From contig OY282361.1 of NCBI GenBank assembly GCA_958295645.1, positions 1,826,501-1,890,500 of the forward strand: 64,000 bases of DNA, in the 5' to 3' direction. Positions 30,277 through 42,757 of the stretch are shown piece by piece. Numbering within the stretch: the stretch's first letter is position 1; every line of letters starts with the position of its first letter. The notes beneath the pieces are model-generated. The model ran no database searches and was not told where the DNA came from. It saw only the letters and a list, made by a program, of their open reading frames with translations. Made by a program: the position numbers and the translations under genes. Origin of the DNA: Longimicrobiales bacterium (GTDB lineage Bacteria > Gemmatimonadota > Gemmatimonadetes > Longimicrobiales > Gaopeijiaceae).

Positions 30277-32172
30277 ATGACTTGGAGATCGTCCCGTGCG
30301 CTCGTCGCCGTCCCCGGCGCCGTCCTCTTGGCCTGCGCAGGCTGCACCAGAGACCTTGGAATGCTCGATCCCGCGACGCACCCCCCCGAGGCCGCCGTCT
30401 TCATCGACGGCTTCGGCCCGGGCGTCCAGTACTCGGCGTTCGGCGGCTCCAAGACCGACGCCCTGGACATCGAGCTCGACGACGTCTTCAGGGGGACCGC
30501 CGCTCTCAAGTTCACGGTTCCCGGGCCGGGCGACCCCTCCGGCGGCTACGCGGGAGGAGCATTCTACGCGGTCGCGCCGCGCGACCTGACCGGTTTCGAC
30601 GCGCTCACCTTCTGGGCGCGGGCCAGCACGTCGGCCGTCGTGAACACCGTGGGAATCGGCAACGACGCCAGCGGGACGTCGATGTTCACCGCCGAGCTGG
30701 CCGGGTTGCCGGTTTCGACGACGTGGGCCAAGTACGCCGTCCCGCTCCCCTTGGCCTCGAAGCTGGGCGCCGAGAAGGGGCTGTTCTTCATGGCCGAGGG
30801 CTCGGAGTTTCCGGTCGGGTACGACTTGTGGTTCGACGACGTCCAGTTCGAGCGCACCGGCACCATCGCGAGTCCCCGGCCGTCCATCGCTTCGCAGACC
30901 GTCAACGGCGAGGTCGGCACCTCGCTGAGCGTGGCGGGCACGCAAGTCGTCTTCGACGCCTCCGGGACGGACCGCACCGTGATCGCGTCCCCCTCCTACT
31001 TCACGTTCGCCTCTTCGAATCCGTCCGTGGCCGCCGTGGACGCGCTCGGCGGCGTGCAGCTCGTGGGACCCGGATCCGCCATGATCACGGCCCAACTCGG
31101 CGCAACTCCGGCCAGCGGCGCAGTCACCGTCAACGTCTCCACGCCTCCCGACGGCCCGCCGCCGACCCCCACGCTTCCCGAGGCCGACGTCATCTCGCTC
31201 TTCAGCGACGCCTACCAGGACGTCCCGGTGGACACGTGGTCGGCCGTGTGGGACCAAGCCGACGTGCAGGACGTGCAGATCGGCGGCGCGAACGTCAAGA
31301 AGTACACGAACTTGGCCTTTGCGGGCATCGAGTTCACCTCCAGCCCCGTGAACGCCTCGGCGATGACGGACTTCCACGTCGATCTCTGGACCTCCGACCC
31401 GTCGGCCTTCAGGATCAAGCTCGTCGACTTCGGAGCGAACGGGGCCTTCGGCGGCGGCGACGACACCGAGCACGAGCTGACGCTGAACACCGGCACCACG
31501 CCGCCCATCGCCGCCGGCACGTGGAACAGCCTCGACATCCCCATGGCCGCCTTCGCCGGCTTGGCGGCGCGGTCGAACTTGGCCCAGCTGATCATTTCCG
31601 GGGCCAGCCCGACCGTCTATCTGGCGAACGTGTACTTCTTCAAGACGACGCCGAACGCGCCCACCGAGCCCGCGCCGACGCCCACGCACGGCGCCGATCA
31701 CGTGATCTCGCTCTTCAGCGACGCCTACGACGACCGGACCGTGGACACGTGGTCCGCCGTCTGGGACCAGGCGGACGTCGAGGACGTGCAGATCCAGGGG
31801 GACGCCGTCAAGAAGTACACCAACTTGGTCTTCGCCGGCATCGAATTCACCTCGCAGCCGGTCGACGCCACCGCGGCGACGCACTTCCACATCGACGTGT
31901 GGACGCCCGATCCCACGAGTCCGCCCGTCAGCCTGCGCTTCAAGCTGGTGGACTTCGGAGCCGACGGGGCCTTCGGCGGAGGCGACGACGTCGAGCACGA
32001 GGTCGCGGTCAACGCGGGATCCGATCCGCCGCTCGCCACCGCCGCCTGGGTCAGCTACGACATCCCGCTGACCGAGTTCGCGAACTTGACGACCCGCGGA
32101 GCGCTCGCCCAGTTGATCCTCGTGGGCGAACCCAACACGGTGTACGTGGACAACGTGTACCTGCACCATTAG
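30277..32172 (+). CDS. Multi-domain carbohydrate-binding lipoprotein (tandem CBM-like repeats, SusE-like role)
   Basis: The 631-residue protein starts at ATG 30277 with GGAG eight bases upstream. A signal ending LLACAGC suggests a lipoprotein. Residues about 40-195 form a jelly-roll binding domain (ALKFTVPGPGDPSGGYAGGA, then YDLWFDDVQFERT). Residues 205-290 form a bacterial Ig-like (Big_2) domain (SSNPSVAAVDALGGVQLVGP). Residues 303-455 and 475-631 are two tandem copies of a CBM-like domain (ISLFSDAY, VDTWSAVWDQADV, VKKYTNL, RFKLVDFGADGAFGGGDD, AQLI, VYVDNVYLH), joined by a Pro/Thr linker. These repeats resemble C-terminal domains of beta-1,3-glucanases. No catalytic domain is present, so surface glycan binding is inferred. 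First gene of the operon controlled by the palindrome. Confidence 0.85.
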   Translation: MTWRSSRALVAVPGAVLLACAGCTRDLGMLDPATHPPEAAVFIDGFGPGVQYSAFGGSKTDALDIELDDVFRGTAALKFTVPGPGDPSGGYAGGAFYAVAPRDLTGFDALTFWARASTSAVVNTVGIGNDASGTSMFTAELAGLPVSTTWAKYAVPLPLASKLGAEKGLFFMAEGSEFPVGYDLWFDDVQFERTGTIASPRPSIASQTVNGEVGTSLSVAGTQVVFDASGTDRTVIASPSYFTFASSNPSVAAVDALGGVQLVGPGSAMITAQLGATPASGAVTVNVSTPPDGPPPTPTLPEADVISLFSDAYQDVPVDTWSAVWDQADVQDVQIGGANVKKYTNLAFAGIEFTSSPVNASAMTDFHVDLWTSDPSAFRIKLVDFGANGAFGGGDDTEHELTLNTGTTPPIAAGTWNSLDIPMAAFAGLAARSNLAQLIISGASPTVYLANVYFFKTTPNAPTEPAPTPTHGADHVISLFSDAYDDRTVDTWSAVWDQADVEDVQIQGDAVKKYTNLVFAGIEFTSQPVDATAATHFHIDVWTPDPTSPPVSLRFKLVDFGADGAFGGGDDVEHEVAVNAGSDPPLATAAWVSYDIPLTEFANLTTRGALAQLILVGEPNTVYVDNVYLHH

Positions 32173-32187
32173 GAAGGGCGCGACCCC

Positions 32188-33465
32188 ATGCGGGGATTCC
32201 CGCCCGTGTCGCCGCAGCGCGCCGGCGAGGGCCCGACGTCCGCGGCCGCGCCGGGAAGACCGCAGGAGAGGACGGCCGGGCGGCGGCGTCTGGCGGATGC
32301 GGTCCTCGAGCTGGTCTGGCGCCACAAGACCATCTCGCGAGCCGAGATCTCGCGTCTCACGGGAAGGTCGCGGTCCACGATCTCCGACATGGTCGCGGAC
32401 CTGCTGCAGACCGATCTGGTTCGCGAGGCGGGGAGCGGCCGCAGCCGAGGCGGGCGCCGTCCGGTCATCCTGGAGTTTCGCGACCATGCGCACGTGATCC
32501 TGGGCGTGGACATGGGCGCCACCCACGTCTCCGCCGCCTTGACCGACCTGCGGGGCCGCGTGCTGGCTTGGCACGACCGGATCCACGACGTGCGGGGAGA
32601 CCCCGAGGGCTCGGTGGCGCTGCTGTCCGAGCTCTGCGAGGCCTGTCTGGCCTCGAGGCCGGCCTCCGCGGGCGAGCTGCTGGGCATCGGCTTCGGGCTA
32701 CCCAGCCCGGTGGACCCGGCCAGTCCCGACCGCATCTCTCCGCGCGTGTTCCCCGCCTGGCGCGGGCAAAGAGTGTTCGGCGGACTGGGAGAGCGCTTCG
32801 GCGTTCCGGTGTACGCGGAGAACGACGCGAACCTGGGCGCGGTTGCCGAGCAGTGGTGGGGCAAGGCGGCCGGATCGGACAACTTCATGTACGTGAAGGT
32901 CGGCACCGGGGTGGGCGCCGGCATCGTCCTGAACGGCGAAGTGTTCCGCGGGGCCACCGGCGTGGCGGGCGAACTCGGCCACATCGTGGTGGACGGCTCG
33001 GGTCCGCCCTGCGTCTGCGGCAGCCGCGGCTGCTTGGCCACGTTCGTGGGAACCCGGGCCCTCGTGGCGCGCGCGAAGTCCCTCTTGAGACGCCATCCGG
33101 ACAGCATCCTGGCCGCGGCCGAGCCCGACATCGTCGCCATCGAGGACGCCGCGCTCGCCGGCGATCCGCTGGCAGTGGCCGTGACCGACGAAGCGGCGCA
33201 CTACCTCGGAACGGCCCTCGCAGGGATCATGAACCTGATGAACCTCGGATCGATCGTCGTCGGCGGCAGCCTCGCCCGGCTCGGAGAACGCCTCTTGGCT
33301 CCTCTCCGCGAGGCGGTGTTGTCGCGGACGCTGGTCGGCTCCGCCGCCTGCACCATCGACGCCAGCAGCCTGGGCCCTCGGTCCGTGGCCCTCGGAGCCG
33401 CCACGCACGTCCTCGTGGCTGCGCTGGCCGACCCTCGCCTCTTTCCTGGAGTGGAATCGCGATGA
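32188..33465 (+). CDS. ROK family transcriptional repressor (NagC/XylR type)
   Basis: The 425-residue protein begins 15 bases after the lipoprotein gene. Residues about 30-95 are a winged helix-turn-helix (ISRAEISRLTGRSRSTISDM, then LVREAGSGRSRGGRRP). The ROK domain follows with VILGVDMGATHVSAAL, FGLPSPVD, AENDANLGAVAEQWWG, KVGTGVGAGIVLNGEV, GELGHIVVDG and the zinc-binding cluster CVCGSRGC. ROK repressors release DNA on binding a sugar or sugar phosphate. The two identical palindromes in this locus are its likely operators, and placement inside the operon implies autoregulation. Its stop overlaps the GH16 start (ATGA). Confidence 0.9.
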   Translation: MRGFPPVSPQRAGEGPTSAAAPGRPQERTAGRRRLADAVLELVWRHKTISRAEISRLTGRSRSTISDMVADLLQTDLVREAGSGRSRGGRRPVILEFRDHAHVILGVDMGATHVSAALTDLRGRVLAWHDRIHDVRGDPEGSVALLSELCEACLASRPASAGELLGIGFGLPSPVDPASPDRISPRVFPAWRGQRVFGGLGERFGVPVYAENDANLGAVAEQWWGKAAGSDNFMYVKVGTGVGAGIVLNGEVFRGATGVAGELGHIVVDGSGPPCVCGSRGCLATFVGTRALVARAKSLLRRHPDSILAAAEPDIVAIEDAALAGDPLAVAVTDEAAHYLGTALAGIMNLMNLGSIVVGGSLARLGERLLAPLREAVLSRTLVGSAACTIDASSLGPRSVALGAATHVLVAALADPRLFPGVESR

Positions 33466-34265
33466 ACTCTCGCCACGCACTTACCCTTGCCGCTCTGGCC
33501 GCCGCGGCGGGGGCCGCCGGTTGCCAAGGCGGCGACGACGCTCCCCGCTGGCGGCTGGTCTGGGAAGACGAGTTCGAAGGACCCGCCGGCACGCTCCCCG
33601 ACCCGCGGCGATGGACGTTCGACGTCGGCGTGGACTGGGGCAACGCGCAGCTCGAATACGACACCGACCGCCCCGAGAACGTCTCGCTGGACGGGCAGGG
33701 CAACTTGGCCATCACCGCGCGCCGGGAGTCCTACCAGGGGCGGCAGTACACCTCGGGCCGCATCAAGACGCAGGGACTCTTCGAGCAGTCGGGGGGCAGG
33801 TTCGAGGCCCGCATCCGTCTGCCGTCGGGGCAAGGGATATGGCCGGCGTTCTGGCTTCTGGGCGCCAACATCGACTCCGTGGGCTGGCCGGACTGCGGCG
33901 AGATCGACGTGATGGAATACCGCGGCCAGGAGCCCTCCGTCGTCCACGGGAGCCTTCACGGTCCCGGATACTCCGGCGACAGGGCCGAGACCAGCCGCTT
34001 CGTCCTCGCGGGCGACCGCTTCGACACGGACTTCCACGTCTTCGCGATCGAGTGGACGCGCACGGGCATCGAGTGGTTCGTCGACGGCCAGCGCTACAAG
34101 ACCGTGCGGCGCGGGGACGTGTCCGGCCAGTGGGTCTTCGACGATCCCTTCTTCATTCTCCTCAACGTCGCCGTGGGCGGCAACTTCATCGGCCCGCCCA
34201 ACGAGGCCACGAGGTTCCCCCAGTCGATGCTGGTGGACTGGGTTCGCGTGCACAGCGGCGAATAA
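33462..34265 (+). CDS. GH16 endo-beta-glucanase (laminarinase-like) lipoprotein
   Basis: The 267-residue protein starts at ATG 33462, coupled to the ROK gene. Its signal ends AAGC (Cys21), a lipobox, so it is probably anchored in the envelope. The catalytic domain shows WEDEFEG, SGRIKTQGLF, GQGIWPAFWLLG, the GH16 signature GEIDVMEYRG with Glu147 as nucleophile, Asp149 and Glu152 as acid/base, then HVFAIEWT and FILLNVAVGGNF. These are features of bacterial endo-1,3(4)-beta-glucanases. No CBM is attached; binding may be supplied by the neighbouring lipoprotein. Laminarin-type substrate is inferred from family and context. Confidence 0.92.
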   Translation: MNSRHALTLAALAAAAGAAGCQGGDDAPRWRLVWEDEFEGPAGTLPDPRRWTFDVGVDWGNAQLEYDTDRPENVSLDGQGNLAITARRESYQGRQYTSGRIKTQGLFEQSGGRFEARIRLPSGQGIWPAFWLLGANIDSVGWPDCGEIDVMEYRGQEPSVVHGSLHGPGYSGDRAETSRFVLAGDRFDTDFHVFAIEWTRTGIEWFVDGQRYKTVRRGDVSGQWVFDDPFFILLNVAVGGNFIGPPNEATRFPQSMLVDWVRVHSGE

Positions 34266-34283: not shown

Positions 34284-36353
34284 ATGAGCGAGCACTACCG
34301 GACGGCGCCCGAAGACCGCATCTCCTTCCCGCGCAAGATCGCGTACGGGATCGGCGGTTTCGTCAACAATCTGCTCGCGTCGGCGATTGGCGGGATGAGC
34401 GTGCTGCTGATCCTGGTCCTGGGCATGGACCCGAGAGTCGTGGGCGTCCTGGGGAGCCTTCCCCGGCTGACGGACGCGATCACGGATCCGGTCATGGGCT
34501 TCGTGTCCGACCGGACCCGCTCCCGGTGGGGACGCCGCCGTCCATACCTGTTCGTCGGCGCAATCGCCTCCGGCATCGTCTTCGCCTTGCTGTGGCAGAT
34601 GCCCGCCCCGGCGCAGTTTCGCGTGAAGCTGGTGGACTACGGAGCCGACGGCGTCTACAGCGACGGCGAGACCGGCGAGGATCCCGGCTTCTTCGAACGG
34701 ATCGCCGACTGGGCCAGCGCCTTCGTGGCGACCGAAGCCATCGACGACGTGGAACACGAAGTGGTCGTCACGCCGCCGTCGCTCGTCACGGGCGCCTGGA
34801 TGCCCCTGGACATTCCGTTGAGCGACTTCATCGATCTGACCACCCGGGAGCACTTGGCCCAAATACTGATTTCCGGGGATCTCGAAGACGTCTACCTGGA
34901 CAACGTGTATCTCCACCGCTCGCCGGCGGAGGGCGTGGAGACCGCCGCCGTCCAAGAGGTGGAGGGGCTCGACGCGCCCGCGGCTCCCGCCGACTCGCCC
35001 TCGCGTCCCCCCGAAGAGGTCCTCTCCTTCTTCAGCGACGCCTACGACGACGTGGCCGTGGGCCGTTGGTCCACCGACTGGGACCGGGCCGACGTGGAGG
35101 ACGCCCAAATCGCCGGAAACGCGGTCAAGCGCTATTCCAACCTGAGGTTCGCGGGCATCGACTTCGGCGACCAGCCCGTGGACGCCTCCGGCATGACGCA
35201 CATTCACATGGACGTCTGGACGCCCAACGCAACCAGCGAGGGCCGGAGCGCCAAGTACTACTTCTGGTACTTCCTGATCGGGTCGATCGTCTTCTTCGTC
35301 GCCTACACCATCTTCGCGACGCCGTGGGTGGCTCTGGGCTACGAGCTGACGCCCGACTATCACGAGCGCACGCGGCTGATGGGCGTCCAGAACTTCATCG
35401 GCAACATTCCGTTCCTGATCGCGCCCTTCTTCTTGGCCATCGTCACCAATCCGGCGTGGTTCAGAAACCAGATGGAGGGCGCCCGGTGGCTCGCCGTCGC
35501 GGTCGGCGCGGTCGCAATAGGACTGGGCGTGATCCCGGCGATCGTCCTGCGAGAGAGAAACCAGCCTGCCACTGCGTCGGAAGGAAGCCTGCGGGACAAC
35601 ATCGCGGACTTCTTGCGCGGCTTGGTCCAGACGATCAAGTGCACTCCGTTTCTCATGTTGTGCCTCGCAACGTTCTTGATCTTCAACAGCTTCATCATGA
35701 TCTCGTCGTTCCAGATTTGGGTGTTCATCCACTACATCTACGGAGGGAGCGCAGTAGGCGGGGCTTGGCTGGCCGGCCTGGCGGGACTCGTGGGGCAGCT
35801 CTTCGGCTTCGTGGTGATCGTCTTCGTCACTTGGCTGGGCACGAAGGTCGGCAAGCGCCACGCGCTGGTCGTCTCGACGGCGGTCTCCATGGTCGGATAC
35901 GGAATGAAGTGGTTCTTCTACACGCCGGAGCATCCCATGCTGGCCCTCCTGCCGGCGCCCTTCATGGCCTTCGGGCTGGGGGGATTGTTCACGCTCATGG
36001 GATCGATGGTCGCCGACGTGGTCGACTTGGACGAGCTCAGCACGGGCGAACGCCGCGAGGGCATGTTTGGTTCGATCTACTGGTGGGTCGTCAAGCTGGG
36101 ACAGGCCCTTGCGCTCTTCGCAGGCGGCTTCCTGCTCGTCGCCACCGGCTTCGACGCAACTCCGGGCGTCGTCCAGAGCGAGCGGACGCTCACGCTGCTG
36201 CGCCTCTACGACGCCTTCGTGCCGCTGGCCGCCTCCGGCATTGCCTTGTGGGCGGTCCTCAAGTTCCCCATCACCGAGGAACGCGCACGGGAGACGCGCG
36301 AGGAACTGGAGCGGCGCCGGGGGGCGGCGGCGGCAGGACCGACGGCGGCGTAG
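34284..36353 (+). CDS. GPH-family MFS sugar transporter with a carbohydrate-binding domain inserted in a periplasmic loop
   Basis: The 689-residue protein starts at ATG 34284 behind GGAGCAGACG. Residues 15-107 are a typical GPH start: KIAYGIGGFVNNLL, DAITDPVMGFVSDRTRSRWG and RRRPYLFVGAIASG. After TM3 (FALLWQMP), where the loop should be a few residues, about 210 residues intervene (110-321) before the transporter resumes at YYFWYFLIGSIVFF. GYELTPDYHERTRLMGVQN follows. The insert is built of the same CBM-like domain found twice in the lipoprotein at 30277, but in permuted order: C-terminal half (FRVKLVDYGADG to YLDNVYLHR), Pro/Ala-rich linker, then N-terminal half (LSFFSDAYDDVAV to MDVWTPNAT). 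By topology the loop is periplasmic. Sugar import of beta-glucan oligomers is inferred from context. Confidence 0.88.
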   Translation: MSEHYRTAPEDRISFPRKIAYGIGGFVNNLLASAIGGMSVLLILVLGMDPRVVGVLGSLPRLTDAITDPVMGFVSDRTRSRWGRRRPYLFVGAIASGIVFALLWQMPAPAQFRVKLVDYGADGVYSDGETGEDPGFFERIADWASAFVATEAIDDVEHEVVVTPPSLVTGAWMPLDIPLSDFIDLTTREHLAQILISGDLEDVYLDNVYLHRSPAEGVETAAVQEVEGLDAPAAPADSPSRPPEEVLSFFSDAYDDVAVGRWSTDWDRADVEDAQIAGNAVKRYSNLRFAGIDFGDQPVDASGMTHIHMDVWTPNATSEGRSAKYYFWYFLIGSIVFFVAYTIFATPWVALGYELTPDYHERTRLMGVQNFIGNIPFLIAPFFLAIVTNPAWFRNQMEGARWLAVAVGAVAIGLGVIPAIVLRERNQPATASEGSLRDNIADFLRGLVQTIKCTPFLMLCLATFLIFNSFIMISSFQIWVFIHYIYGGSAVGGAWLAGLAGLVGQLFGFVVIVFVTWLGTKVGKRHALVVSTAVSMVGYGMKWFFYTPEHPMLALLPAPFMAFGLGGLFTLMGSMVADVVDLDELSTGERREGMFGSIYWWVVKLGQALALFAGGFLLVATGFDATPGVVQSERTLTLLRLYDAFVPLAASGIALWAVLKFPITEERARETREELERRRGAAAAGPTAA

Positions 36354-36405: not shown

Positions 36406-37386
36406 CTAGCGCGGCCTCGCCCCTCCGGCGAACTGGCGGAGGCGATTCTTCCAGTGCTGCACGCGAGCCCGGCGGAGGCGTCGCCGACTCGTCTTCTGCC
36501 AGAACTCCTCGCTGACCAGCGACCCGTGGGCCAAAGGCTCGGAGAAGGGCAACGTCTCGATCCACATGCGGGCGGCCTTCATTACTTCTCGCTCCACTTG
36601 GTAGAGCAAGTAATTGTCCGGAACAGAACCGTTTCTGCGCGAGGCCAGCCCGGCCATCTCTGGGAGATCGACGTAGCGGACCAAACGATAGCGCTCTTCC
36701 AGGGGCTTCCAGAAGTCTGCGCGACCCTCGTCGGATGCAAGAAAAAGCGTACTGCCGTCGCCGACGCCACATGCACGCAGATAGGCTCCGACACTGTCAG
36801 GCTCCGTCATCGACGACGGGTATGTTCCGGCCTCTCTGTTCCCGACCCGGTCGACCCGGTCGCCCCGCCGGGCATGGACGGCGACGAAGCCGCCTTCGTC
36901 GAGCGCCGCCAAGCGATTCACGACGGACGCCGCCAGCGCCGCCACGTTGGCGGAGGGTGCAAGACGAAGCTGTGCGCGGGACAAGCCCTCCGGCGGCACT
37001 TGCCGACGAAACGGCGTCGACAGCCCGAAGCGCCGCACAATCCGCGGGGGGTCGGCCGCGTCCTGCGGCAGGGGGCTGCCCGGATCCAACACGAGCGTGG
37101 TCAGATCGGCGCCCGGCTCTTGATCCGCCAGCGGCAACGGATGCTCCCCCTGGGCATCGGCCAGCACGCTTCGCTCGAAGTCGAAGTACGTCTCCCACCG
37201 CCACTCGCGATCAATTCCGAAGTTGTAACGCGGGAGCAAGCAAAGTGGCGGGAGGGCCGCAAACCGGCCGGACGCCCGAGCCTCTCTCAGCAGGCAACCA
37301 AGATCGGAAACGGAGTGAAGCAGGCCGACCCGCATGAGCGCGGGCATCTCGTACTCCAAGTATCCGGAACCAAGCGCAGTGGGCAT
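36406..37386 (-). CDS. Fucosyltransferase-like protein (HxRRGD motif)
   Basis: The 326-residue protein starts at ATG 37386, directly after the TGA of the GH3 gene (TGAATG), so it is coupled to it. The centre has FVAVHARRGDRVDRVGN, matching the GDP-fucose binding HxRRGD-type motif of alpha-1,2/1,6- and protein O-fucosyltransferases. It is followed by STLFLASDEG and a conserved DNYLLYQVEREVMKAARMW helix, as expected in this fold. A sugar-transfer function is inferred; the real donor and acceptor are unknown. It is odd in a catabolic operon. It converges with the transporter gene, 52 bases apart. Confidence 0.6.
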   Translation of the reverse strand: MPTALGSGYLEYEMPALMRVGLLHSVSDLGCLLREARASGRFAALPPLCLLPRYNFGIDREWRWETYFDFERSVLADAQGEHPLPLADQEPGADLTTLVLDPGSPLPQDAADPPRIVRRFGLSTPFRRQVPPEGLSRAQLRLAPSANVAALAASVVNRLAALDEGGFVAVHARRGDRVDRVGNREAGTYPSSMTEPDSVGAYLRACGVGDGSTLFLASDEGRADFWKPLEERYRLVRYVDLPEMAGLASRRNGSVPDNYLLYQVEREVMKAARMWIETLPFSEPLAHGSLVSEEFWQKTSRRRLRRARVQHWKNRLRQFAGGARPR

Positions 37387-39273
37387 TCAGCAAGAATAGC
37401 GCAGGCCGTACCCCACGGGGAAGAGGACGTCGCCGGGCGGGTCGTCGCCTTGGGGATCGCTGGCGGGCCAAGCGAAGGGAAGCGTTCCGCGGAAGCCGGC
37501 CTTGCCGAAGAGGACGTCGGCGACGCCGCCTCCCTCGGAGCCGGGAAGCCAAGCCGCGACGAAGGCCGCGGAGTCGGCGAGTTCGCGGGTCGTCACCAAG
37601 GGGCGTCCGGACAGCAGGACGGTCACCACGGGCAGGCCTCGGGCGCGGGCGGACCGGATCGCCGCCAAGTCCTCGGGATGAAGGGCGGCGAGCTCCAGGG
37701 ACTGGCCGTAGGGCTGGAGCGTCTCCGCGCCTGCCGCGTCCTCGGGGCCTGCCGGCATCCGGGGCGCGCCGGGACGGACCGGGCTGGGGTCGCGGATGTC
37801 GCCCATCCCTTCGGCGTAGGGCCGCTCGCCGATCACCACCAAGGCCACGTCGAAGGCGCCGTCCGGGAGCTCGCCTGATCCGCTGGCGGCGGAACCGTCC
37901 TCGCCCAGCACTGCATGGGGAGCCACGGCCCGGACGCCCTCCCACACCGACGTGCCTCCCTCGATGCGGTCGTTTCCAGCCACTCCCTGCCACTCCACCG
38001 TGAAGCCGCCGCACTGGCTGCCCCGGTCGTGGGCGTTCTTGCCGGCCACTAGAATCCTGGCCGCCGGGTCCAGGGGCAGGATGCCGTCCTCGTTCTTGAG
38101 GAGGACCAGCGACCTGCGCACCGCCCGCCGGGCCGCCACTCGGTGGGCCGGGGACCCGAAGCTGGGGTGGTTGGACCACTTCCGCTGCGCGGGCCGGGGG
38201 CGGCCGAAGAGTCCGCAGGCGGCCTTGACCCGGAGGATGCGCCGCACCGCGTCGTCGATCCGTTCCATGGGCACGGCGCCGGACTGCACCTGGCTCGTCA
38301 ACGCGGAGATGAAGAGCCGCCACTGCTCGGGCACCATGAACATGTCGATGCCGGCGTTGGCGGCTTGGGCCACGGCCTCTCCGTAGTCTTCGGCCACTTG
38401 GTCGATGCCGTTCCAGTCGGAGACGACTAGGCCCGGGAAGCCCATCTCGCCCTTGAGCACGTCCTCGATCAGGTAGCGGTGCGCGTGGCAGCGCCGCTGG
38501 TTCCACATGCTCAGGGACACCATGACCGTGAGCGCGCTCGCCTCCAGAGCGTCCCGGTAGGGCATGGCGTGGACCCGGCGAAGCTCGTCCTCCGAGATCC
38601 TCGCGTCGCCCTGGTCCACGCCGGCCGTCGTGGCGCCGTCGCCCACCCAGTGCTTGGCGCAGGCGGCGATGCCGTCGGGCCCGAGCGAACCGTCGGAAGC
38701 GTCCTGGAGCGCGGCCACGATCCGGCCCGCGTACGAGGCCGCCACCGCCGGATCCTCCGAGAAGCTCTCGTAGGTGCGGCCCCAGCGGACGTCCCGGGCC
38801 ACTGCCAGCGTCGGCGCGAAGGTCCAGTCCACTCCCGTCGCCAGCACTTCGCGGGCGGTGATGCGCGCCGCCGCTGCCGCCAACTCCGGGTCGCAGGCCG
38901 CGCCCAGGCCGATGTTGTGGGGGAAGACGGTGGCGCCCAGCACGTTGTTGCTCCCATGGATGGCGTCCACGCCGTACAACACGGGAACGGGAAGCCGGCC
39001 GTCCTCTTCGAACATCGACGCGGCCCAGTACTCGTCGTTCATGGCCACCCAGTCCGCCGGGCGGTTGGCGCCCGGGGCCGACCCGCCGCCGCTCAGCACC
39101 GAGCCGATGTGGAACTCCCGCACCTCCGCCGGGCTCACGTGCATGCGCTCGGCCTGGGTCATCTGGCCGACCTTCTGGGCCAGCGTCATGCGGGACAGGA
39201 GCTGGCGGGCTCGCACCTCCGCTTCGGAGGCGCGGCCCGCCGGCGGAGGCGCGTCGGGCGCAGTCGCGGACAT
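37387..39273 (-). CDS. GH3 beta-glucosidase
   Basis: The 628-residue protein starts at ATG 39273. No signal peptide is apparent, so the enzyme is probably cytoplasmic. GH3 landmarks are present in order: LLSRMTLAQKVGQMTQAER, VPVLYGVDAIHGSNNVLGA, FPHNIGLGAA, WGRTYESFSED, CAKHWVGDGAT, the nucleophile region GFPGLVVSDWNGIDQ and LLKNEDGILPLD. The C-terminal domain ends with LPFAWPAS and FPVGYGLRYSC, lacking the fibronectin III domain of longer GH3s. It would release glucose from short beta-glucans imported by the transporter. It lies 29 bases downstream of the GH2-like gene. Confidence 0.92.
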   Translation of the reverse strand: MSATAPDAPPPAGRASEAEVRARQLLSRMTLAQKVGQMTQAERMHVSPAEVREFHIGSVLSGGGSAPGANRPADWVAMNDEYWAASMFEEDGRLPVPVLYGVDAIHGSNNVLGATVFPHNIGLGAACDPELAAAAARITAREVLATGVDWTFAPTLAVARDVRWGRTYESFSEDPAVAASYAGRIVAALQDASDGSLGPDGIAACAKHWVGDGATTAGVDQGDARISEDELRRVHAMPYRDALEASALTVMVSLSMWNQRRCHAHRYLIEDVLKGEMGFPGLVVSDWNGIDQVAEDYGEAVAQAANAGIDMFMVPEQWRLFISALTSQVQSGAVPMERIDDAVRRILRVKAACGLFGRPRPAQRKWSNHPSFGSPAHRVAARRAVRRSLVLLKNEDGILPLDPAARILVAGKNAHDRGSQCGGFTVEWQGVAGNDRIEGGTSVWEGVRAVAPHAVLGEDGSAASGSGELPDGAFDVALVVIGERPYAEGMGDIRDPSPVRPGAPRMPAGPEDAAGAETLQPYGQSLELAALHPEDLAAIRSARARGLPVVTVLLSGRPLVTTRELADSAAFVAAWLPGSEGGGVADVLFGKAGFRGTLPFAWPASDPQGDDPPGDVLFPVGYGLRYSC

Positions 39274-39302
39274 CGAGGAGCCTCTGGGTCGCTGGGGCCG
39301 CG

Positions 39303-42300
39303 CTACATGCCCACGTGGAGGTACGTGCGGATCTCCCACTCGCGCCCGTTGCCTCCGCCCGCGTCCGTGTTGCAGATCATGGCGCCGCGGCCGTCCGGCG
39401 CGCGCACGGGGCACCACCGCGGCGAGTGCTCGTTCAGCGATCGGAAGGCGGCTCGCACGCCGAAGCGGGTCTGGGGCATGTCGAACCACTCGGGCAGCCC
39501 CAGCGCGTAGGACACGTCGCCCATCAGCTGCAGCGGGAACGTCTGGTTGAAGTCCCGGTGGTAGTCGTAGGGACCCCAGTCGTTGACCCGGAAGTGAGCC
39601 TGGAACTTGATCGGCCCGCCGATGATCCGCAGATCCGTGCCGTAGCGGGTCACGACCCGCTCGTCGTTGCCGTTGGGCTCTCCCTTGCCGCCGTAGACGT
39701 TGGCGATCATGCCCACGCCCGAGGGCCGCTTGGACACCAGCCGCGCCTTCACTTCCCAGAGGCTCCGGGCCGGAGGCGCGCCGGGGAAGGCGAAGGTGGA
39801 GCGTCCGTCGGGGAGGATCCCGATTCCGGCGTCCTGGGTGGTGGCGAAGTTCCAGTAGACGAAGCCCATGGAGGCGGCGAAGGAGGCGTCTTCGCGCATG
39901 TCGCTGTCCCATGTGTACATCCAGGTAGCGGGCGTCGGGTCGTAGGTGATCAGCAGCTCGCCGGCCACCGTCTCCCGGTTCGCCCGCACGGCGAAGGGAT
40001 CGTCGATGACGTTGCGAGGCCGCGCCGGCGCCGGCGCGTCGGAGGGCACCGGACCCACCAGAGGCTTCCGCCACAGGAAGTTGGGCGCGAACTGCCAGTT
40101 CCCGTTCACCACGGCGAAGCCCGTGAGCAGGTTCCGCTGGTTGCCGGAGCCCGTGTCCTTCAAGGTCCAGCCGGTGAAGGTCTGGGTCTGGTCGTAGCCG
40201 CCGTCGGCCACCAGCCCCATGGCCGCGCCCTGCACGTACCAGCTGAGGCGCCCCTTGGTGAGCGTCATCTTCGCCTTGGCGCCGAACGCGTCGGACGACT
40301 TGATCCCGTCGCTGAGGACCCGGTAGTCGCCCGGATCGCCGTCCACGATCTGGAAGGCTTCGCCCTCCTTGGTGCTGCCGGACCAGATGCCGCCGAAGTC
40401 GAAGATCGTGGAGCCGCGGGTGGCCGTAATGTGCAAAGTGGCCTTCCGGGTGGGCGGCACCGGGATGGCGAAGGAACTCGTGGCGGCCCCCTGCTCCGCC
40501 AAGTCCTCCTGGAAGACGAAGGTCGTGCCGAACGGCCCGATGCTCGTCTGGTACTTGCCCAGAATCGCCGGGTTGGCGCCCCACCAGAGTTCCGGACCCA
40601 CGGCGACCTTGAGCCCGGACAGCCCTTTCTTGCCCTCGATCTCCATGCCCAAGGGCGCGGCGCCGTTGTAGATGTCCAGGTTGGGACCGTAGTTGGCTTC
40701 GGGGTACAGGCCGAAGAAGTCGCCTTCGTAGCCCCAGTGGTAGTGGCCCGTGCGGTAGAAGCCGTCCAGCCGGAACCAGCGGTCGTCCCAAGAGACGCTG
40801 GCCCGGTACACCTTGACCCGCTCGATGTCCTGGAGGCCGAAGGTCTGGCCGTCGGCCCTCACCACCCGCGTGCGTCCCCGGTTCTCGTAGAAGATCTCGT
40901 CGATGGGGTTGGACGGGACGTCGCCCAGAATGTTGACGGAGAGGTCGGCGACCAAGTTCTGGGTGGGCCGGGCGCGCATGTCCGCGTAGAAGGACTGCAT
41001 CTTGTCGAAGCCCTTGAAGCTGGGGTACATGGGCCGTTCGCCGCCCAGGTCCGGCGCCTTCTCCGGCGTGCTGACGTTGGTGCCGCCGGTGCTGAACGCC
41101 TCCAGCTCGATGCGCACTCCGCTCAGGTGCACCCGGTCGCGGGCCGTGGACAGCAGAGCGGCCCGGTCGCCCAGCGCCTGGAGCCCGGCGGCGGCCACGT
41201 CGATGCGGTCGAAGTGCTCGCGAATCGCCGCCAACGTCGTCCCCGGCGCGTAGGCGTCGAGCTCGTAGGCCTCCTTCAGGGCGTAGTAGGCGGCCCGGGG
41301 GTACAGCTCGTAGAGGTTGTTGTGAGCGGTGGGACCCTTGGCCACGATCCCCCACCACTCCTCGTTCATGTTGTTGTCGCCCTCCACGAAGTCCTCCGGG
41401 TAGGCGTCGTTGGCCCAGGAGGCGTTGGTGTCCTGGATGTCCAGCCGGTCCTCCTGGCCGAACTTCCACCAGCCGTCGGTCCACTGGAAGGTGAGGCCGC
41501 CGATGGAGTTGCCCACGAGCCCCTTGCCGGCCGACTGCTCGTATATCTCCCGCCACTGCTCGACGAGATACTTGGCCTGGGTGACCTGGTCCTCGCGCAT
41601 GTTCTTGGCGTCCCACACGTCGGCGCCGAACTCGGTGAACATGACCGGACGGCCCAGCTTGTCGTGGACGTCCTGGAACAGCTGGCCGAAGGAGATGCCC
41701 CGGTACACGTTGGCGCCGAAGACGTCCAGGTCGGGGACCTCCTCGGCGATGATTTCGATGTACTGGAGGTCGCCGTTCGCCATGGCGATCGGTCGGCCCG
41801 GGTCCTTCGACTTGATCATCCGCGCCACGTCTCCGAAGAGCGAGTACATGTAGCGCGCCCGCACCGCGTCGGCTTCGCCCTGCGGCAGGTCCTCCGTCTC
41901 GGCCGAACTCCAGACCAGCCCGTAGTTGTTCTCGTTGCCGAGAAGCCACATCAGCACGCCGGGGACGCCCTGGAACTCGTCCACGAGCGCCTCCACCTCG
42001 GCCATGACCACGGCTCGCGCGGCCGGATCCGAGTAGTCGGTGTTGGCGTTGAAGACGCCGTTCACGGTGACGCCGTAGCGGGCCACCGCGTGGTTCAGGA
42101 CCGTGAAGACCCCCCACTTCTCGTAGATGTAGCGCACCCACTTCGGCTGGATGCCGGCGTAGGCCCGGATCGCGTTGCCTCCCATCGCCTTCAGGACGGA
42201 CATCTCGCGGTCGATCCCCGCCTGGATGATCTCGTCGGGCTCCGACCAGAAGTTGTAGGAGTAGGTGGTGCCGACCGGGAAGTAGTCCCAGTTCACGCCC

Positions 42301-42476
42301 AAGACCATGAAGTCCTCGCCGTCGACCTGGAGTCTCGTGCCGGAGTCGTTCGACACGAGCCGGATGTCGGGCATCTGCTGGGCGGCGGCGGGCGCGCCAA
42401 GAGAGAGCGTGCCCAACAAGGCGAGGCTCGCGATGGCGAGGCCCGAGGTGGCGGTGGACTTGCGGATCGATGTCAT
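39303..42476 (-). CDS. Secreted GH2-like (clan GH-A) glycosidase with a large beta-rich C-terminal region
   Basis: The 1057-residue protein starts at ATG 42476 with AGGAAG upstream and has a signal peptide ending APAAAQQ. Residues about 40-350 form a TIM barrel: FMVLGVNWDYFPVG, MGGNAIRAYAGIQPKWVRY, the acid/base in WLLGNENNYG (Glu182) and the nucleophile in PVMFTEFGADVWD (Glu282), as in GH2 and relatives. Residues about 420-1057 have no Pfam domain I recognise; they are Gly/Trp/Tyr-rich with alternating hydrophobics (WDDRWFRLDGFYRTGHYHWG, KAKMTLTKGRLSWYVQG). This suggests a beta-barrel or multi-sandwich, and the chain ends IRTYLHVGM. First gene of the second operon, behind palindrome site 2. 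Beta-glucan substrate is inferred. Confidence 0.82.
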   Translation of the reverse strand: MTSIRKSTATSGLAIASLALLGTLSLGAPAAAQQMPDIRLVSNDSGTRLQVDGEDFMVLGVNWDYFPVGTTYSYNFWSEPDEIIQAGIDREMSVLKAMGGNAIRAYAGIQPKWVRYIYEKWGVFTVLNHAVARYGVTVNGVFNANTDYSDPAARAVVMAEVEALVDEFQGVPGVLMWLLGNENNYGLVWSSAETEDLPQGEADAVRARYMYSLFGDVARMIKSKDPGRPIAMANGDLQYIEIIAEEVPDLDVFGANVYRGISFGQLFQDVHDKLGRPVMFTEFGADVWDAKNMREDQVTQAKYLVEQWREIYEQSAGKGLVGNSIGGLTFQWTDGWWKFGQEDRLDIQDTNASWANDAYPEDFVEGDNNMNEEWWGIVAKGPTAHNNLYELYPRAAYYALKEAYELDAYAPGTTLAAIREHFDRIDVAAAGLQALGDRAALLSTARDRVHLSGVRIELEAFSTGGTNVSTPEKAPDLGGERPMYPSFKGFDKMQSFYADMRARPTQNLVADLSVNILGDVPSNPIDEIFYENRGRTRVVRADGQTFGLQDIERVKVYRASVSWDDRWFRLDGFYRTGHYHWGYEGDFFGLYPEANYGPNLDIYNGAAPLGMEIEGKKGLSGLKVAVGPELWWGANPAILGKYQTSIGPFGTTFVFQEDLAEQGAATSSFAIPVPPTRKATLHITATRGSTIFDFGGIWSGSTKEGEAFQIVDGDPGDYRVLSDGIKSSDAFGAKAKMTLTKGRLSWYVQGAAMGLVADGGYDQTQTFTGWTLKDTGSGNQRNLLTGFAVVNGNWQFAPNFLWRKPLVGPVPSDAPAPARPRNVIDDPFAVRANRETVAGELLITYDPTPATWMYTWDSDMREDASFAASMGFVYWNFATTQDAGIGILPDGRSTFAFPGAPPARSLWEVKARLVSKRPSGVGMIANVYGGKGEPNGNDERVVTRYGTDLRIIGGPIKFQAHFRVNDWGPYDYHRDFNQTFPLQLMGDVSYALGLPEWFDMPQTRFGVRAAFRSLNEHSPRWCPVRAPDGRGAMICNTDAGGGNGREWEIRTYLHVGM

Positions 42477-42549
42477 GACGGCGCTTCCTTTCGAGTGCCT
42501 TCCCGGCGCGAGGCTGGCTCGCCAATGCGGCCGGCGCAGTACTCGGGCA

Positions 42550-42574
42550 ACTTTGTTCGGTTGCCGAACAAAGT
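42550..42574. promoter_or_regulatory. 25-bp perfect palindrome, probable ROK operator (site 2)
   Basis: Arms ACTTTGTTCGG and CCGAACAAAGT flank a TTG centre, identical in both arms to the site at 30176-30200. It lies 74 bases upstream of the GH2-like start on the minus strand, nearly the same distance as site 1 from its gene. It is also about 180 bases before the DASS transporter on the plus strand. Confidence 0.85.
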
Positions 42575-42757
42575 GGACGCCCGCCCTTGCCGCTGTCAAG
42601 AACGCCCCCCTTGGCGAGCGCAGTCTCGGCAGGTCCCGTTCCTGGACAGGGGCGCGGCGGCGGGCCAGCTTATGCGCCGCCGGAACGCCTCGGAGCCGGG
42701 GCGGCCGGCTGAACGAGCGCATCCCCCAAGGCTCGTCCCCCCAACCGGAGCCGGTCG

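Follow-up and report, generated by a model that had tools for sequence, protein, structure and literature searches.

A circularly permuted CBM-like domain in the TM3-TM4 turn of a predicted GPH sugar symporter from Longimicrobiales

We describe a predicted GPH-family sugar symporter whose turn between transmembrane helices TM3 and TM4 holds one full period of a CBM-like repeat, running in the order C-terminal half, linker, N-terminal half. The gene lies in the window, by which we mean the whole 64,000-nucleotide stretch of DNA from a Longimicrobiales bacterium that was analysed, and the same repeat occurs in register in a lipoprotein of the same cluster. Our best explanation is that a domain derived from the tandem array was gained once and acts as a tethered capture domain for beta-glucan oligosaccharides. 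We put the probability of this reading at roughly 0.6; binding and hand-over are inferred and there are no binding data.

Results

A GPH transporter interrupted after TM3

The transporter, its insert and the parts of the insert are located as follows.

34284-36353, + strand: GPH/MFS_2 sugar symporter with an inserted domain, 689 aa (PF13347, AlphaFold2, Foldseek)
34539-34592, + strand: TM3, residues 86-103, in-to-out; AlphaFold2 helix, preceded by the Arg-rich cytoplasmic loop DRTRSRWGRRRP
34605-35237, + strand: insert, residues 108-318, about 211 aa, delimited by comparison with insert-free homologues
34617-34916, + strand: C-terminal half of the CBM-like repeat, residues 112-211, canonical strands 5-9, HMM positions 78/94-157 (AlphaFold2)
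34665-34745, + strand: added segment with a predicted helix, residues 128-154 (about 27 aa), inside the C-terminal half and found in transporter inserts only
34917-35012, + strand: linker, residues 212-243, homologous to the inter-repeat linkers of tandem arrays
35013-35225, + strand: N-terminal half of the CBM-like repeat, residues 244-314, canonical strands 1-4, HMM positions 2-77 (AlphaFold2)
35250-35348, + strand: TM4, residues 323-355; AlphaFold2 helix

The protein matches Pfam PF13347 with 194.2 bits (cut-off 27) in two stretches, the break falling after TM3, and with NCBIfam TIGR00792 (gph) it scores 176.1 bits, below the cut-off of 231.35, in a match that the insert likewise splits. 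AlphaFold2 models the full transporter with a pLDDT of 87.8 and a pTM of 0.84, and Foldseek superposes the helical bundle on MelB (TMt 0.75) and MFSD2A (TMt 0.81), with which it has the GPH (MFS_2, PF13347) sequence family and the predicted MFS fold in common. On the strength of PF13347 and the modelled fold, membership of the GPH family is likely; cation-coupled sugar transport is inferred. Positive-inside reasoning on the AlphaFold2 helices assigns the TM3-TM4 turn to the periplasmic side. As the insert-bearing transporter is the sole strong PF13347 match in the genome, no insert-free copy substitutes for it.

The insert is bounded by P107, the last shared residue on the left, and E319, the first on the right; the empty site reads LWQxP followed directly by (E)GRS. 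Insert-free homologues have LWQxP-x-GRS-E at this place, whereas filled sites read LLWQMP-A-P-(A/T)-Q-(F/L)R.KLVD ... WTP....-EGRS. Compared with 82 insert-free relatives, in which the TM3-TM4 turn is very short, the turn of this transporter is longer by 211 residues.

The insert is a circular permutant of the lipoprotein repeat

An alignment that crosses the linker matches the insert to the repeats of the lipoprotein at 30277-32172 with 48% identity (E 2.5e-48). Scored with a repeat HMM that had been built iteratively from 191 full-length matches, the insert runs through positions 94-157 and then, after the linker, 2-77, and the strand FRVKLVD (positions 78-93) lies at its very start, so that one complete repeat period is present and no part is missing. 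The insert is therefore a circular permutant: both halves are homologous to the repeat and their order is swapped, by the HMM and by the AlphaFold2 strands (5-9, then 1-4). The cut in the repeat falls where a short loop joins canonical strands 4 and 5. Between the two halves lies a linker that resembles the natural inter-repeat linkers. In relatives, the insert-internal linker TAAPTPTVPAEDVISFFS and the array linker EPAPTPTHGADHVISLFS have an APTPT-type stretch in common, and array linkers (..APTEPAPTPTHGADHVISLFSDAY) are likewise similar to insert-internal ones (..TAAPTPTVPAEDVISFFSDAYDD in relatives); this likeness matches what is predicted for an out-of-register slice of a tandem array.

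The original prediction, made from the sequence alone, had claimed an interruption after TM3, a permuted order and a Pro/Ala linker, and all three are present in the open reading frame. Its proposal of one repeat length taken out of register was upheld by the HMM order and the homologous linkers. Its borders, 34611-35246, are refined here to 34605-35237, and it had overlooked the roughly 27 extra residues of the C-terminal half (128-154).

In the AlphaFold2 model the C-terminal half of the insert contributes strands 112-118, 156-162, 173-178, 191-198 and 202-211, and the N-terminal half strands 246-250, 270-276, 279-285/289-293 and 306-313; all nine strands of the canonical repeat are thus present in one jelly roll, in permuted order. 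The model joins the domain to TM3 by 8 residues and to TM4 by 9. With TM3 ending at 103 and TM4 starting at 323, both ends of the domain are predicted to lie at the membrane. As a prediction, then, the claim of a single folded domain anchored at both ends is borne out, and the structural check suggested beforehand returned one jelly roll, not two unfolded halves. Two cautions apply to the model: the alignment given to AlphaFold2 took in out-of-register array slices, and without a PAE the model does not fix how the domain is oriented to the sugar path.

The canonical repeat is modelled with a pLDDT of 95.3 and nine strands. Its nearest folds in the PDB are CBM11 and CBM30 (E 2e-6 to 1.5e-5, TMq 0.59-0.68) at only 10-14% identity, and no credible sequence homologue of the repeat was found in the PDB. 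When 64 repeats were compared with Pfam, six gave weak matches to SGBP_B_XBD and one to CBM_11 (E 0.11). Without a significant Pfam or PDB sequence match, membership of the CBM11 or CBM30 sequence families is not met.

A segment specific to the inserts and selection on the domain

All inserts carry 20-32 residues between GADGV and DDVE, where lipoprotein repeats have none or few. AlphaFold2 places a helix at 136-145 in this segment with low confidence. The hydrophobic moment of its best 14-residue stretch exceeds more than 95% of shuffles in 16 of the 21 distinct inserts; the remaining five fall below that level, the window's own (about 93%) among them. The segment would probably pack on the membrane or on the transporter and orient the domain.

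The insert evolves under purifying selection, with dN/dS values of 0.23-0.42 against 0.08-0.21 for the membrane core in eight clean pairs of close relatives. Two further pairs were left out: L115/L125, as the assembly of L125 has a frame shift in the gene, and L118/L119, as the insert border of L118 is misplaced. Most residues conserved in the arrays are kept in the inserts (S6, Y12, K40, Y42, W70, D87, W119, D153 and N154, and also W20 and Q140, in repeat numbering). W24 survives in only 61% of inserts, and D18, T19, E51 and T149 are changed consistently across them; specificity may therefore have shifted or weakened. Purifying selection and this pattern of kept and changed residues together indicate a domain that is maintained and specialised.

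Distribution of the insert

We found the insert in 22 complete genes, spread over 20 genomes, and in one fragment (G026), always at the same site. These 21 genomes represent five genera and two families, and three of the assemblies are single contigs; a class-wide sample of 394 genomes contained no further carriers. The other 82 transporters in our tree, from Gemmatimonadota, Pseudomonadota, Calditrichota, Ignavibacteriota, Myxococcota and others, have a 3-residue TM3-TM4 turn and no insert. With the insert columns left out of the alignment, the transporter tree groups the carriers in one clade (SH-aLRT 99), whose sister is an insert-free gene on a long branch (L145), and no sampled gene within the clade lacks the insert. 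The inserts also form one clade in the domain tree (support 100), nested among array repeats.

Two genomes, G016 (L111/L112) and G017 (L113/L114), each encode two diverged insert-bearing transporters. In genus g85 (L139-L145), three genomes (G190, G336 and G198) have an insert-bearing gene nested among the genes of another family, and the insert-free gene of a fourth (G379) is sister to the insert clade; this pattern suggests lateral transfer or replacement. Larger inserts were considered for Calditrichia/KSB1 loci with matches of about 2700 bp and were rejected, since the complete transporters there have a 3-residue turn. In these loci (L079, L084-L086 and L088, Calditrichota/KSB1) the extra upstream part of the tblastn matches is possibly a neighbouring repeat protein.

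The gene cluster and the putative donor

The transporter belongs to a cluster with the following members.

30277-32172, + strand: probable lipoprotein resembling surface glycan-binding proteins, with two in-register C-terminal CBM-like repeats; likely donor lineage
32188-33465, + strand: ROK-family regulator (PF00480, E 1.5e-55)
33441-34265, + strand: GH16 glucanase (PF00722, E 1.9e-24), with the motif GEIDVME seen in the sequence
37387-39780, - strand: GH3 enzyme; best NCBIfam match exo-beta-1,3/1,6-glucosidase, below the model cut-off
39303-42722, - strand: GH2-like TIM-barrel protein (PF02836, E 2.7e-07), conserved in synteny

The order lipoprotein-ROK-GH16-GPH, facing GH3 and the GH2-like gene, is conserved with or without the insert, so the array probably adjoined the acceptor before the insertion event. 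From their families, the GH16, GH3 and GH2-like proteins are inferred to serve beta-glucan use, with a laminarin-type beta-1,3-glucan as the likely substrate. Within this genome only the transporter and the lipoprotein, which is encoded three genes upstream, contain the domain. The lipoprotein is akin to surface glycan-binding proteins of the SGBP-B type, which are also lipoproteins built of several beta-sandwich domains and encoded in glycan-use clusters, and the repeats give weak SGBP_B_XBD matches; it differs in that the repeats belong to a largely unannotated family. This family of roughly 157-residue repeats is large (141 repeats in related loci); it has no clear Pfam or NCBIfam model and a high-confidence CBM11/CBM30-like jelly-roll prediction.

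Discussion

Based on these observations, we propose a single gain of a CBM-like jelly-roll domain in the TM3-TM4 turn of a GPH symporter. An out-of-register slice of the tandem array is the likely origin of the insert. In this view a piece of about 550 bp would have been copied locally, since insert-bearing and insert-free relatives alike have the array on the same strand, 2-3 kb upstream. The cut between strands 4 and 5 would bring the new ends close together and so may have permitted splicing into a helix-helix turn. A Leu/Ile-Trp-x-Pro motif is found at the join (CTC TGG CAG CTG CCG in the acceptor, CTG/ATC TGG ACC CCG in the repeat), and this microhomology may have set the register, although the event is old and the similarity only suggestive. 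The donor repeat itself could not be traced: the halves show a mean identity of 52-57% to array positions in the same locus, whichever position is taken, and in the domain tree the inserts lie near the middle and last repeats without a clear sister.

Two other histories deserve mention. That the exact donor cannot be identified leaves room for a domain permuted elsewhere as a single module, end-joined and re-cut, and inserted later; we regard this as very unlikely, because the halves are joined by a linker with homology to the natural inter-repeat ones, a free-standing permuted copy is absent from this genome and the arrays are located in the same cluster. An assembly chimera of the lipoprotein and transporter genes might be suspected from a domain common to two genes within about 6 kb. 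It is all but excluded by the 22 complete homologues that carry the insert at this site, which also rule out chance: the same junctions recur in 20 other genomes, single-contig ones included, at 62-78% protein identity, and the insert has diverged from the local array repeats. The original prediction would have fallen had the insertion been absent from all related genomes, and this did not come to pass, as 21 genomes carry it.

What might a permuted CBM-like domain do on a symporter? In our proposal the co-encoded GH16 and GH3 enzymes would release beta-1,3-type gluco-oligosaccharides, which the periplasmic domain would bind and keep beside the outward-open permease; it would thus play the part of a solute-binding protein while being covalently attached. 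Tethered capture is the simplest role, given a CBM-like domain fixed periplasmically on the only strong GPH match of the genome. The capture of glucan oligomers and their hand-over to the permease, already suggested by the original prediction, are plausible from fold and gene context and remain inferred and untested.

The main rival, which stays possible, is that the domain binds no sugar and serves for docking, bringing a partner (GH16, GH3 or the lipoprotein array) to the permease. It draws support from the extracellular domain of PepT1/PepT2, which is proposed to recruit trypsin and whose removal causes no appreciable loss of transport (PMC4597091), so that an inserted domain need not serve substrate capture; from the insert-specific changes at array-conserved sites and the insert-specific segment; and from the conserved partners in the cluster. 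Against it, W20, W70, W119, K40, Y42, Q140 and most conserved glycan-binding-like residues of the repeat are kept, and no partner interface has been demonstrated. A gate, lid or stability element, altering the transport cycle without binding glycan or partner, is unlikely: motion of the domain could be passed to the helices through its short links with TM3 and TM4, but a CBM-like fold with retained conserved aromatics would be an odd choice and positive support is lacking. The domain might finally be a nearly neutral passenger that has no role and folds without harm in its periplasmic turn, in favour of which one may cite its dN/dS above that of the membrane core and the loss of W24 in some inserts. 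We consider this very unlikely, since the insert is kept in five genera under clear purifying selection and no loss was sampled inside the clade.

Both a domain inserted in an MFS loop and a permuted insert derived from a tandem array have precedents. Mammalian PepT1/PepT2 are MFS importers that likewise carry a beta-sandwich in an extracytoplasmic loop, as our transporter does in its TM3-TM4 turn; the likeness is by analogy and homology is not claimed. They differ in being eukaryotic peptide transporters with two Ig-like, trypsin-binding domains (PMC4597091), neither carbohydrate-binding-like nor described as permuted. The swaposin domain, the plant-specific insert of aspartic proteases, is likewise circularly permuted and inserted in an unrelated protein, and its permutation has been explained by duplication in a tandem array (PMC3320104). 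Our insert probably arose by the same route, known as 'permutation by duplication', for which swaposin serves as the textbook case (PMC3320104). Swaposin is a helical saposin domain in a soluble protease, whereas in our case a membrane transporter received the domain and its own gene cluster encodes the likely donor family. With CBM11 and CBM30 the canonical repeat has the jelly-roll fold in common; it lies outside their sequence families, is permuted in the transporter, and its beta-glucan binding is inferred. In the open-access literature searched we found no described case of a carbohydrate-binding domain in an MFS loop, nor the combination of an inserted MFS domain with an array-derived permutation; within that scope, the original statement that no transporter of this design had been described holds.

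MFS symporters are usually thought to find their sugar by diffusion. A bolder reading, for and against which we would wager equally, is that of a symporter with its own attached glycan-binding domain, taken from the array of its cluster and later furnished with an amphipathic helix. If true, it would be a one-polypeptide counterpart of uptake that depends on a solute-binding protein, and the built-in domain would show how a secondary transporter can gain substrate capture; insert-free relatives in the same gene cluster serve as a natural control. As a circular permutation that arose in nature the case is also well defined, with acceptor, empty site, likely donor family and array linkers all known, and it offers a suggestion as to why a permuted domain can be accommodated in a helix-helix turn.

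Two genes of the window merit a further comment. Between the transporter and GH3 lies a gene for an O-fucosyltransferase-like protein (36406-37386, - strand; PF10250 below cut-off), found only in G037 among the relatives compared. The GH2-like protein (39303-42722, - strand; 1139 aa), conserved in the cluster, has an N-terminal TIM barrel and about 640 C-terminal residues without a Pfam match; by eye this C-terminus resembles an outer-membrane beta-barrel, and a glycosidase-barrel fusion is possible.
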